NCBI GenBank assembly: GCA_902826025.1 | Contig: CADEDH010000013.1 | Location: 60,739-110,556 of the forward strand | Direction: 5' to 3' | DNA length: 49,818 nt | Source of the DNA: an uncultured Actinomycetes bacterium | Lineage (GTDB): Bacteria > Actinomycetota > Acidimicrobiia > Acidimicrobiales > SZUA-35 | Part shown: one piece after another, positions 8,109 to 36,302 of the stretch | Layout: the number at the start of each line of letters is the position of its first letter | How positions within the stretch are numbered: the first letter of the stretch is position 1 | Position numbers and translations under genes: made by a program | Notes under the pieces: model-generated | What the model saw: only the letters and a program-made list of their open reading frames with translations | Told to the model about the DNA's origin: nothing | The model's database searches: none

Positions 8109-9482
8109 CTAGACGGGCGTTGAGCCGAACCGGATGGTGGCCACCGCATCGGCCACGGTGGCGACCCGAGAGACGGCCATGCCGGTGGGGCCTCGGCCGG
8201 CCGACGACGGCACCACAGCCGAACGGAACCCCAGGCGGTAGGCCTCCTGGAGCCGCAGATCGAGCTGGGGAACAGCCCGCAGCTCACCCCCCAGCCCGAC
8301 CTCGCCGCACACCACGAGATCGGGTGGGAGCGGACGGTTCAACATCGAGGAGGCCAGGGCCAGCACCACCCCGAGATCGGCCCCCGGTTCCTTCGCCGCC
8401 GCCCCGCCGGCGCACGACACGAAGACGTCCTGGCGGTTCACCGGAATCCCCATCCGGCGGACCATGACGGCCGAGAGCATGGCCAGGCGGCGGCTGTCCA
8501 CCCCCTGCACGGCCACCCGGCCCGGCGGGTTCGGCACCTCCACCGCCAACGCCTGCACCTCCACGAGGATGGGGCGGCGGCCTTCCAGCACCGGCACCAC
8601 CACCGAGCCGGCCAGGCCGGCCTGGCGGTCGGCCAGGAACCGGCCGGCCGGATCGGCCACCGCCGCCAGCCCGCCCCCCGTCATCTCGAACAGGCCGACC
8701 TCGGTGGTGGGCCCGAAACGGTGCTTGACGGCGCGGAGGTACCGGAGCTGGCCGGCCCGGTCGCCCTCGAACGTGAGCACGGTGTCGACCAGGTGCTCGA
8801 TGACCCGGGGCCCGGCCAGCGAGCCGTCCTTGGTGAGGTGCCCCACCAGGATGATCGACACCGCGAGCTGCTTGGCCGCCGATATCAGGGCCTCGGTGGA
8901 GGCCTTGAGCTGGCTCACCGAGCCGGGCGGGCCGTCGACCTCGTCGGCCCGGACCATCTGGATCGAGTCGACGATCGCCACCTGGGGCCGCACCGCCTCC
9001 AGGGCGGCCACCACCGCCGGCACCGACGTGTCGTCGAGGACGGCCAGGGTGGGCGGAAGCGGGCCCAGCCGAGCGGCCCGGGCCGCCACCTGGGCCGGTG
9101 CCTCCTCCCCCGCCACCAGCAGCACCGACGCGCCCTGGGCCGCCACCGACACCGCCAGCTGCAGGGTGAGGGTGGACTTGCCGACGCCAGGCTCGCCCCC
9201 CAACAGCGACACCGAACCCGGAGTCAGCCCACCCCCCAGCACCCGGTCGATCTCGTCGACCCCGGTGGGGGCCGGGAACACCGCTCCGGTGCCCACGTCC
9301 ACCAGGGCCTGCACCGTAGCCCCGCCGGCGCCCCCGGCCCCGGCCAGGGCGGCCACCCGGGCCTCGGCCCCCGTGACCTCCTCGACCGTGGCCCACTCGC
9401 TGCAGGCCGGACACTGCCCGGCCCAGGTGGTGGGGGAAGCACCACAGCTGCGGCACCGGTACGTTCGCTTCGGACGAGCCAT
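8109..9482 (-). CDS. radA: DNA repair protein RadA (Sms)
   Basis: 457 residues. A RecA-like branch-migration ATPase. The N-terminal zinc finger has CRSC and CPAC (Cys10, 13, 24, 27). Walker A is GGEPGVGKST (about residues 95-104) and Walker B is QVAIVDSIQ. The RadA signature, usually KNRFG, reads KHRFG here, a mild substitution. The C-terminal Lon-like domain contains FVSCAGGAAAKEPGADL. The length is normal. It is followed by disA and preceded by the LppM-HAD gene on the same strand. Confidence 0.97.
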   Translation of the reverse strand: MARPKRTYRCRSCGASPTTWAGQCPACSEWATVEEVTGAEARVAALAGAGGAGGATVQALVDVGTGAVFPAPTGVDEIDRVLGGGLTPGSVSLLGGEPGVGKSTLTLQLAVSVAAQGASVLLVAGEEAPAQVAARAARLGPLPPTLAVLDDTSVPAVVAALEAVRPQVAIVDSIQMVRADEVDGPPGSVSQLKASTEALISAAKQLAVSIILVGHLTKDGSLAGPRVIEHLVDTVLTFEGDRAGQLRYLRAVKHRFGPTTEVGLFEMTGGGLAAVADPAGRFLADRQAGLAGSVVVPVLEGRRPILVEVQALAVEVPNPPGRVAVQGVDSRRLAMLSAVMVRRMGIPVNRQDVFVSCAGGAAAKEPGADLGVVLALASSMLNRPLPPDLVVCGEVGLGGELRAVPQLDLRLQEAYRLGFRSAVVPSSAGRGPTGMAVSRVATVADAVATIRFGSTPV

Positions 9483-9511
9483 GCGACGACCCTAATCAGC
9501 CCCTGTGACAG

Positions 9512-11044
9512 TCAGATGCGATCGGAGTCGACGAGGTCGTCGTCGGAGCCTTCGAAACTGCGGATCACCTGATGCTCGCCGGCATCGGCCCGGGTGCCGG
9601 TGCTGGTGAACCAGGCCGTGGCGTAGCCCAGCGCCCGGGCGGCGTCCAGCATCTTGAGATCGTCGTCGATCACCAGGATCTGGGCCGGCGGCTCCTGGGC
9701 GAACCGGCGTAGCACCTCGAACAGCGACCGGTCGGGCTTGACCGCCCCCACCGAGCCGCTGACCACCCACAGTTCGATCAGGGTCTCCAGGCTGTGACTG
9801 ACGCGGAGCCGTGTGTTCCAGGTGGTGGCGTCATCGGTGATGCAGGCCAGCTTCACCCCCTGCTCCCGCAGGCTCCGCAGGTAGCGGATCACGCCGGGAG
9901 ACAATTGGTGGTGGGCGAGATAGGCGGCGTCGAGCTCCTCGGGATCTCCGGGCACACCCAGCGACACCCACAGCTCGGCCGTGGTCATCCGGCCCAGCCG
10001 TAGAGCGCGGGCCCGGGCCAGAATCTCCACGTCGGTCCGGGGGCTGCCCATCTGGCGGGCGAAGGGAATCAGCAGGTTCTCCACCGGGTCGGTCTCGCGG
10101 AACAGCACCCCCATGCCGTCGACGGCCACCCAGCGGTGCCCGTCCTCCCCCGGGGGCGGGAGCTCCACCGGCGGTTCCTGGTTGAGGGTGGCGGCCCGGG
10201 GATCGAGGGGACGGATGGAGCTGGTATGACGGCGGGGCGGGCGGCGGCGCCGGTCGGGCAGCACGATGCGCAGGATCCGGGCGAACAGGATGAGCACGGC
10301 CAGCACGCCGGTGAGCACGGCCAGGCCCCGCAGGGCCCGGGGCACCACCTGGCGGGTCACCGAGACCAGGCCGAGATCGACGGCGTCGCCGTCGGCCATC
10401 GTGGCCTCCCACGACACCTCGGTGGTGTCCTCGCCCTCCTTCACCACCCCGCCCGGGGTCGACGACTGCAGGGTGCCGGGAAGGACCACGTCGAAGCTGA
10501 CCGCCACGTTGCGGGGATCGACCTCGTAGTCATCGACGGCGATGGCACCTGCCTCGCGGCCCAGGGCGGCATCGAGCTCAGGGTCGGTGAACGCTGCGAG
10601 CCCCTGGCTGGTGTCGAGCTGGCCGGCCAACTCGTAGTCGACCCGGGCGAAGCGCCGGATCCGGGTGAGCGTGAAGTCCCGGTAGACGCCGGCCGATCCG
10701 CTGATCTCGGCCATCACCTGGGCGAACTGCTCCGGCGTGCCGAACTCCTTGCTCGCCTTGATCACCGTGTTGCCGGCACCGTCGGCCGCTGGCGGCTGCA
10801 CCACCCAGCCAGCCTGCGACAGGTCGCCCAGGGGCAGGCCATCGGAATCGGGGTTGAGGTCGAGCAGCGCCGCTGTGGTCTCGGCGTCGAGTGTGGCGGT
10901 GGCCTCCACCGTTCCCGAACCGTCCTCCTGGACCCGGGCCACCACATCGACGTCGGCCCGGCATCCGGTCACCACGAGCAGGGCAAAGAAAGCCAGGGCC
11001 AGGGTCGCCACCCTCCCCCTGGTGATCCGTCGGATCAGCAGCAC
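9512..11044 (-). CDS. LppM-domain lipoprotein fused to a cytoplasmic HAD-like domain
   Basis: 510 residues from a GTG start. A signal sequence ends in the lipobox VTGC (Cys28). An LppM-like extracytoplasmic domain follows (about 29-225, DVDVVARVQEDGSGTVEATA), then one membrane helix (about 233-258) with a strongly basic inner flank, and a cytoplasmic HAD domain (about 300-490). HAD motifs are motif I VAVDGMGVLF, motif II ACITDD, motif III VKPDRSLFE and motif IV ILVIDDDLKMLDAA. In motif I the second Asp of DxD is Met (DGM), as in dehalogenase-type HADs, which also lack it, so classical phosphatase activity is doubtful. Lipid anchor plus one helix would place the two domains on opposite sides of the membrane. 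The fusion function is unknown. Confidence 0.72.
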   Translation of the reverse strand: MLLIRRITRGRVATLALAFFALLVVTGCRADVDVVARVQEDGSGTVEATATLDAETTAALLDLNPDSDGLPLGDLSQAGWVVQPPAADGAGNTVIKASKEFGTPEQFAQVMAEISGSAGVYRDFTLTRIRRFARVDYELAGQLDTSQGLAAFTDPELDAALGREAGAIAVDDYEVDPRNVAVSFDVVLPGTLQSSTPGGVVKEGEDTTEVSWEATMADGDAVDLGLVSVTRQVVPRALRGLAVLTGVLAVLILFARILRIVLPDRRRRPPRRHTSSIRPLDPRAATLNQEPPVELPPPGEDGHRWVAVDGMGVLFRETDPVENLLIPFARQMGSPRTDVEILARARALRLGRMTTAELWVSLGVPGDPEELDAAYLAHHQLSPGVIRYLRSLREQGVKLACITDDATTWNTRLRVSHSLETLIELWVVSGSVGAVKPDRSLFEVLRRFAQEPPAQILVIDDDLKMLDAARALGYATAWFTSTGTRADAGEHQVIRSFEGSDDDLVDSDRI

Positions 11045-35462: not shown

Positions 35463-35588
35463 CCTGGGAGAGGGGTCGGTCGGGGGGTGCGGACTCGAGC
35501 GCCGGCGGCGCCCGCTGCCGATGGGGGGAGCTTAGTGAGCCCGGCGCCCCACCGGGAGGCCACCTAGAGTGGGCGGCGGAGGTACGAG

Positions 35589-36302
35589 ATGACCGAGACC
35601 GCGCTCCTCGACCGGGCCCACGCCACGATCATGACCCAGGTGGTGACGACCGGCCGGGCACCCCATCACACGGAGCTGGCCGCCACCCTCGGCATCGGGA
35701 TCGACGAGGCCCGAGCGGCGATCGACGCCCTGTGGGCCGCCGGCATCCCCGGTTGGGTCCATCCCGGCACCGACCTCATCGCCTCGTTCCCCCCGTTCAA
35801 CCTCCAGCCCACCCAGTACCGCATCACGATCGACGGGAAGCCGGGCTGGTACGGCCAATGAGGCTTCGAGTCGCTGGCCGTGCGCTGGCTCTGCCCCGGA
35901 TCGACGATACGGATGGAGGCCCCCTGCCTCGACTGCGGTGAACCCCTCGTAGTCGAGATGCGGGACGAGGCGATCCTCGCCGTCGAGCCCGACACCATGG
36001 TGGGCTACACCCGCTCGCCGGTGGGAGGTGATGCGGCCTCACGGCCGTTCCGGTGAGCGGGCATGAACCTCTTCCGGTCGGAAGAGCACGCCCGCCGGTG
36101 GTCGGAGTTCAACCCCGACACGGCCGACACCATCCTGCCTGTGGCGGGCTGGGCCGACATCTTCGCCACCCCCATGTTCCGCAACCGCCCCCGGGCCGAT
36201 TTCGTGTCATGGCTGGCCTCGGAGGAGGGGGTCGCCGGCCGCCAGCAGCTGATGGCGATGCTGCCCCCCGGTGCCCGGCCGCCGGCCCCACCCGCGGCCT
36301 AG
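35589..36302 (+). CDS. MerB-family (organomercurial lyase-like) protein with two in-frame TGA codons, putative double selenoprotein
   Basis: Read through two TGA codons (35859-35861 and 36054-36056, both in frame) this is one 237-residue protein; MerB is about 212. The N-terminal winged helix (GRAPHHTELAATLGIGIDEAR) and PTQYRITIDGKPGWYGQ lead to U91, in the place of catalytic Cys96 of plasmid MerB (YAWCALD). Sixty-four residues later, close to the 62 between Cys96 and Cys159, comes U156 just before AGMNLFRSEEHARRW, matching the FCCHVHFFAS region of MerB. PCLDCGEP and ILAVEPDTMVGY lie between. MerB Asp99 is Glu here. GGAGGT lies 6 bp before ATG. TGA is an ordinary stop elsewhere in the window. 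Alternatives are a double nonsense pseudogene or two short genes. No merA, merR or sel genes are nearby. Confidence 0.72.
35862..35895 (+). promoter_or_regulatory. Candidate SECIS element for the first UGA
   Basis: Right after the first TGA, GGC (35862-35864) can pair with GCC (35893-35895), and GAGTC-GC (35868-35874) pairs with GC-T-GGCTC (35884-35891) with one bulge. The apical loop TGGCCGTGC begins at 35875, 14 nt after the UGA, with G as its second base. It is weaker than the second candidate; an imperfect helix CCG..CGG around 35896-35912 is an alternative. Confidence 0.4.
36057..36095 (+). promoter_or_regulatory. Candidate SECIS element for the second UGA
   Basis: Immediately after the second TGA: outer helix GCGGGC (36057-36062) with GCCCGC (36090-36095), internal loop ATGAAC/CAC, then a perfect 7-bp helix CTCTTCC (36069-36075) with GGAAGAG (36080-36086) closed by tetraloop GGTC. 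The loop starts 20 nt after the UGA. The position, two-part stem and a GGU apical loop match the E. coli fdhF/fdnG SECIS recognised by SelB. Confidence 0.7.

Follow-up and report, generated by a model that had tools for sequence, protein, structure and literature searches.

In this report, we will focus on a MerB-like gene interrupted by two in-frame TGA codons, which lies in a stretch of 49,818 nucleotides from an uncultured Actinomycetes bacterium (contig CADEDH010000013.1 of assembly GCA_902826025.1; lineage SZUA-35 of the Acidimicrobiales). This whole stretch will be called the window, and the two TGA codons site 1 (residue 91) and site 2 (residue 156). An earlier note on this DNA had described a single frame from 35589 to 36302 broken only by TGA at 35859 and at 36054, and translation confirms it: on the + strand, the 237 codons end with a TAG, and the only internal stops are the TGA codons at 35859-35861 and 36054-36056. 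Reading TGA as U gives a joined frame of 237 residues, whose features are the following:

35578..35582, + strand: GGAGG, likely ribosome-binding site, 6 nt 5' of the ATG at 35589 (from reading the sequence)
35589..36302, + strand: gene encoding the MerB-like double-TGA protein (237 residues when TGA is taken as U), terminal TAG (frame, Pfam, fold model)
35859..35861, + strand: TGA, residue 91 (site 1), on MerB Cys96; likely selenocysteine (alignment, relatives, hairpin)
35868..35870, + strand: GAG, Glu94, on MerB Asp99; predicted proton relay (alignment)
35873..35889, + strand: site-1 hairpin GCTGGC-CGTGC-GCTGGC, resembling a selenocysteine insertion sequence (SECIS); 5-nt loop on a stem of 6 pairs, spacing of 17 nt from the TGA, energy -6.1 kcal/mol
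35925..35927, + strand: TGC, Cys113, on MerB Cys117 (alignment)
36054..36056, + strand: TGA, residue 156 (site 2), on MerB Cys159; likely selenocysteine (alignment, relatives)
36069..36086, + strand: site-2 SECIS-like hairpin CTCTTCC-GGTC-GGAAGAG; 4-nt loop on a stem of 7 pairs, spacing of 19 nt from the TGA, energy -9.1 kcal/mol

The protein belongs to the MerB family: the Pfam model MerB (PF03243) covers residues 71-186 with an E value of 8e-18 and 65.1 bits for a cut-off of 27, and the AlphaFold model has the full MerB fold (pLDDT 96). The NCBIfam MerB models score far below their cut-offs (38.8 vs 193 bits and 30.7 vs 200 bits), and the best PDB matches are MerB2 5c17 (E 2e-5), followed by MerB (E 0.026 and above). 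The MerB signature Cys96, Asp99, Cys117 and Cys159 and its numbering are taken from PMC8261052, the numbering being also found in PMC4525700. The phmmer alignment to MerB 3f2g pairs residue 91 with Cys96, Glu94 with Asp99, Cys113 with Cys117 and residue 156 with Cys159, so that the two TGA codons do sit on Cys96 and Cys159, as had been claimed, and the canonical signature is replaced by TGA/Glu/Cys/TGA. While MerB (3f2g, 1s6l) has two catalytic cysteines and Asp99, the window protein would thus have two selenocysteines (Sec) and Glu; the 99Ser variant MerB2 5c17 has two cysteines and Ser at 99, against TGA/TGA and Glu here. The earlier observation of Glu in place of Asp99 is correct for the window protein, but this is a trait of its subfamily, since a second double-TGA subfamily, described below, keeps Asp.

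The pair of TGA codons is conserved. A scan of named contigs gave 245 stretches with a relative, and in the best 80 of them, which were taken for site typing, 49 loci have TGA at both sites, 31 have Cys at site 1 and TGA at site 2, and none has another in-frame stop inside the domain; the remaining stops on the list, from residue 212 onwards, are where the genes themselves terminate. The earlier note had judged it unlikely that chance nonsense mutations would hit both catalytic codons, and had held that random stops elsewhere in relatives would speak against selenocysteine; a pair found in 49 of 80 loci is far beyond chance, and no such random stops appear. Where TGA is absent, Cys is found: MerB and 10 Cys/Cys loci have it at both sites, and the 31 loci just mentioned at site 1, which is the pattern sought in a selenoprotein. 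A search of the window's class found the family in 35 of 296 genomes, and the 30 loci fetched (L009-L038, the window gene included) divide into 6 TGA/TGA, 14 Cys/TGA and 10 Cys/Cys. At the level of the phylum, 26 of 396 genomes matched, and the four best matches have two TGAs, two of these being already counted. The records of the relatives are labelled Actinomycetota, Desulfobacterota, Chloroflexota and others.

The history of the two sites differs. In the window clade (clade A), which has 90 rows (55 TGA/TGA and 35 Cys/TGA, with one identical pair, L010 and L057), site 2 is TGA in 90/90, and the letter at site 1 is Cys in all 35 rows in which it is not TGA. On a quick tree of 110 rows, built with both TGA sites masked, the TGA/TGA label changes 10 times, of which at least 7 are forced by starred branches and one sits at the border to more distant rows. 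Site 1 has therefore switched between TGA and Cys several times while site 2 stayed TGA. All 55 double-TGA genes keep the frame through site 2, and the nonsynonymous rate (dN) is below the synonymous rate (dS) before, between and after both sites in all 14 relative pairs chosen for this comparison (12 TGA/TGA and 2 Cys/TGA).

A MerB-like protein with a single Sec is already known. A 2026 review, PMC13188914, covers 119 prokaryotic selenoprotein families and subfamilies, and the one entry named MerB-like in its table, SaoL, has 1 Sec in a CU motif; PMC9312934 (a 2022 review) gives the accession of SaoL as an alkylmercury lyase MerB-like selenoprotein. SaoL (NF040728, MerB-like organometallic lyase of the Sec-assisted organometallic system), described in the table of PMC13188914, is of the MerB family like the window protein and shares with it a Sec position at the place of MerB Cys159; it has, however, one Sec and a Cys at site 1 (PMC13188914; locus L172) where the window protein has TGA at both sites, and the window protein reaches 20.9 bits with the SaoL model, for a cut-off of 140. 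Two other families with two Sec and metal-linked names, MbdU (NF045648) and a putative mercuric reductase (NF041115), appear in Table 1 of PMC13188914, but neither model is listed for the window protein. No double-Sec MerB is found in Table 1 of PMC13188914 or in the literature searched, the coverage of which left out two key papers.

The search with the SaoL model revealed a second double-TGA group. It matched 26 of 198 genomes of the Desulfobacterota group, one of them over the cut-off (L172, in which the single TGA aligns with site 2 and site 1 is Cys). Five further matches were fetched: L174, L175 and L177 have TGA at both sites and keep Asp, L176 belongs to the window clade with both TGAs, and L173 is Cys/TGA. 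Searching the same genomes with the L175 protein gave 11 matches, namely 10 double-TGA loci and the SaoL genome. These 10 loci (L178-L187) form a distant MerB subfamily of the Desulfobacterota group, hereafter subfamily D, with TGA at both sites in 10/10 and Asp kept, which means that the double-TGA state is present in two distant MerB subfamilies. The novelty is thus a MerB relative with UGA at both catalytic positions, in two subfamilies, whereas the known one has one Sec.

The host genome carries the genes needed to read UGA as Sec, and the four that the earlier note had proposed to look for are all present: a tRNA-Sec with anticodon UCA (65.6 bits for a cut-off of 47), selA (400.9 bits) and selB (270.2 bits), which adjoin each other on contig 22, and selD (371.2 bits). 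This selD has one in-frame TGA (L048), a feature known for Sec-containing SelD. In the same-class sample, selA is over the cut-off in 200 of 296 genomes, and in 19 of the 20 sampled genomes whose fetched family member has TGA, including all 6 double-TGA ones. It is also found in 28 of 30 genomes (28 double-TGA and 2 Cys/TGA) that we chose among those behind the 80 named loci.

Both TGA codons are followed by conserved hairpins that appear to be of the bacterial SECIS (bSECIS) form, the one after site 1 being weak in energy. The bSECIS criteria, as given in PMC13188914, are a loop of 3-9 nt, a stem of 4-16 bp, a G in the first two loop positions, a spacing of 16-37 nt and an energy of -7.5 kcal/mol or lower. 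The site-2 hairpin of the window falls within all these values (4-nt loop opening with G, 7-bp stem, spacing of 19 nt, -9.1 kcal/mol). Segments of 48 nt taken from site 2 fold better than shuffles, with a mean z of -1.61 in 55 TGA/TGA genes and -1.79 in 45 Cys/TGA genes, against -0.39 in 10 Cys/Cys genes. After removal of near-copies for codon counts, which left 54 TGA/TGA and 31 Cys/TGA genes, the codons following site 2 in the former are frozen (CTC in 53/53, TTC in 54/54, CGG in 51/54, TCG in 54/54 and GAA in 51/54), and together they spell the hairpin CUCUUCC-GGUC-GGAAGAG. Its innermost pair is C-G in every one of the 100 TGA genes from the window clade and from a more distant Cys/TGA group; subfamily D has U-A in 7/10 and C-G in 3/10, with no mismatch, even though the compensated U-A pair changes Arg to Trp, and the pair forms in 1/10 Cys/Cys genes. 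In Escherichia coli fdhF, the loop GGUC lies at nt 22-25 from the UGA, and the site-2 loop at nt 23-26. The more distant Cys/TGA group of the same class (L019, L020, L023, L024, L025, L027, L028, L029, L031 and L033) shares the site-2 hairpin, with the loop GGUC in 10/10.

At site 1, the loop of 5, stem of 6, G in second position and spacing of 17 of the window hairpin fit the bSECIS form, while its core energy of -6.1 kcal/mol does not reach the published value; the conservation described next speaks for it. Its six-pair stem, GCUGGC-NGUNN-GCUGGC, is present in 54 of 55 TGA genes and, with near-copies removed, in 53/54 TGA vs 13/31 Cys genes (Fisher p 2.7e-9, relatedness being ignored). Third codon positions that are frozen fall within the stem, and those that are free are in the loop or 5' of the stem. 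In particular, codon +8 after site 1 is NGC in 54/54 while the residue varies between Arg, Cys, Ser and Gly, which points to a constraint on the RNA and not on the protein. Hairpins of the published form at -5 kcal/mol or lower follow site 1 in 53/55 TGA genes, 16/35 Cys genes and 1147/5552 background codons; at -7.5 kcal/mol or lower, these numbers become 18/55, 3/35 and 479/5552. Subfamily D has a strong site-1 hairpin of its own, GCCCUU-CGUGC-AAGGGC, which is paired in 10/10 and lies farther downstream than in the window clade.

Taken with the Sec genes and the Cys/TGA relatives, these hairpins strongly support the earlier claim that both TGAs encode selenocysteine, and both UGA codons are very likely read in this way. 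We further consider it probable that this MerB-fold double-Sec protein acts as an organometal(loid) lyase in which the metal is held between two selenolates, an activity that is predicted from homology. In the mechanism that we propose, SelB and the Sec-tRNA(UCA) would decode each UGA by means of the hairpin just 3' of it. U91, E94 and U156, which the alignment and the confident fold model put at the places of MerB Cys96, Asp99 and Cys159, would form the active site: U91 and U156 would hold M, the soft metal or metalloid of a compound R-M, Glu94 would relay a proton to the carbon so that R-H leaves, and M would then pass to cellular thiols or selenols. Methylmercury is one candidate substrate, though the surroundings of the gene do not point to mercury.

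Several results weigh against this double-Sec lyase. Regarding the decoding, one of the 20 sampled genomes, G196 (L024, Cys/TGA), has no selA, and among the 30 chosen genomes selA was not found in that of L115 and is a fragment at a contig edge in that of L050. The core of the window's site-1 hairpin, at -6.1 kcal/mol, falls short of the -7.5 published in PMC13188914, folding energy by itself does not reveal a site-1 hairpin (mean z +0.38), and the six-pair stem is also present in 15/35 Cys genes. When the link of stem and TGA is tested with phylogeny taken into account, over 6 independent pairs, about 2.9 go the same way, 0.0 go against and 3.1 are ties, which does not reach significance (median p of 0.25). 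Regarding the activity, Glu in place of Asp99 counts against a lyase, no mer genes adjoin the window gene, and no MerA over the cut-off is found in the window's genome, where the best match has 344.5 bits vs 454.45.

One alternative, which we hold to be unlikely, is that both Sec are made but that the protein binds, traps or senses a soft metal(loid) without cleavage; the winged-helix-like N-terminal half, together with the cyclase or AAA domain fused in relatives, would then relay a signal. Against it, the protein has retained the fold of MerB, its two metal-ligand positions and an acidic residue where Asp99 would be, the window protein has no fused domain, and MerB has the same N-terminal part, since the aligned range starts at model residue 1-6. 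It is more improbable still that Sec is inserted at site 2 only, with the site-1 UGA terminating translation or being rarely read and a 90-residue product serving as a switch. The weakness of the site-1 hairpin and its invisibility to folding energy would fit such a scheme; but the frame is kept through site 2 in 55/55 double-TGA genes, dN is below dS after site 1 in the pairs compared, the stem tracks TGA (54/55 vs 15/35), the alternative at site 1 in clade A is always Cys, and the site-1 hairpin of subfamily D is strong.

It seems very improbable that UGA is reassigned or suppressed as Cys or Trp, without selenium. Among the 120 proteins listed of 524 database matches, site 2 is Cys in 2 and Trp in 6, of which five also have Trp at site 1; these Trp residues, which would fit such a reading, are as expected from gene calling with TGA=Trp. 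Against it, the only UCA anticodon among eight scanned tRNA loci, a scan that covers part of the genome, is that of tRNA-Sec, tRNA-Cys having GCA; TGA is the terminal codon of many of the 80 relatives; and SECIS-like hairpins follow both sites. A pseudogene or a sequencing error, with two stops in an ordinary merB-like gene, would be conceivable in one contig of a 162-contig assembly, but its probability is close to nil and it is refuted by the conserved TGA pairs: 49 of 80 independent records carry this very pair of stops with no further one inside the domain, and relatives show purifying selection beyond both stops.

The window gene, beside which partners of the SAO operon were looked for, lies between a CoA_transf_3 (CoA-transferase) gene and an MFS_1 gene on the other strand. 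Of 12 genomes that hold a member of the family (8 double-TGA and 4 Cys/TGA), 3 have a MerA over the cut-off, all three being double-TGA. One of these genomes, G022, has a MerA over the cut-off and a MerR-type gene, the latter by reading (L161, 4441-6503, about 9041-10588), and this merA and the MerR-type gene are found ~3 kb from a double-TGA MerB-AAA fusion. Around the 80 named loci, for which the stretches extend at most 6 kb on each side of the gene, tblastn with one MerA query against L050-L129 and L162-L168 found no close MerA, the sole match being a weak one in L083 (32% identity, 167 bits). No common neighbour emerges across these loci: leaving aside open reading frames (ORFs) that overlap the gene, the widest ORF cluster covers 13/80 (an ABC ATPase by reading), and the next-widest consist of widespread metabolic families or of ORFs from loci that are close relatives. 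Among the 25 families listed first for Pfam (of 89) and for NCBIfam (of 630), the commonest Pfam family occurs in 5 of the 88 immediate neighbours that were scanned, out of 94 picked around the 49 double-TGA loci; these neighbour ORFs were chosen by a rule of length and third-position GC content (GC3), and some may be wrong.

Five related Chloroflexota loci (L088, L089, L094, L102 and L105) are an exception: modA-, modB- and modC-like genes lie directly downstream, ubiD comes after them, and the opposite strand has an HTH-PBP gene. In relatives from the window's class and phylum, the double-TGA MerB is fused to a class III cyclase-like domain (L012 and L013 by Pfam, L015 by reading) or to AAA (L014 and L016 by Pfam, L131 and L132 by reading). 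We tentatively suggest that a widespread class of enzymes with a two-Sec clamp may exist in two distant MerB subfamilies (U-x-x-E and U-x-x-D) and cleave metal(loid)-carbon bonds; the clamp, fused to cyclase and AAA outputs in Actinomycetota and neighboured by molybdate-type importer genes in one Chloroflexota group, would mark an organometal(loid) metabolism distinct from classical mercury resistance, hidden by catalogues of UGA-cut proteins.

Mercury and similar soft metals are bound more tightly by selenolates than by thiolates, which raises a sharp question for a double-selenol enzyme, namely how the product leaves and which substrate is used. Because Cys/Sec and Sec/Sec forms occur naturally in a single clade, what each selenium contributes can be put to the test. 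Of the 120 relatives listed, 112 end exactly before site 2 and a few of these are named organomercurial lyase, so that surveys of methylmercury breakdown based on MerB may misjudge them. The public relatives P0005-P0120, a few of which bear that name, are deposited in truncated form, ending at the site-2 TGA, and P0120 has at its N-terminus an HD-type stretch that may be a further fusion or an artefact of gene calling.
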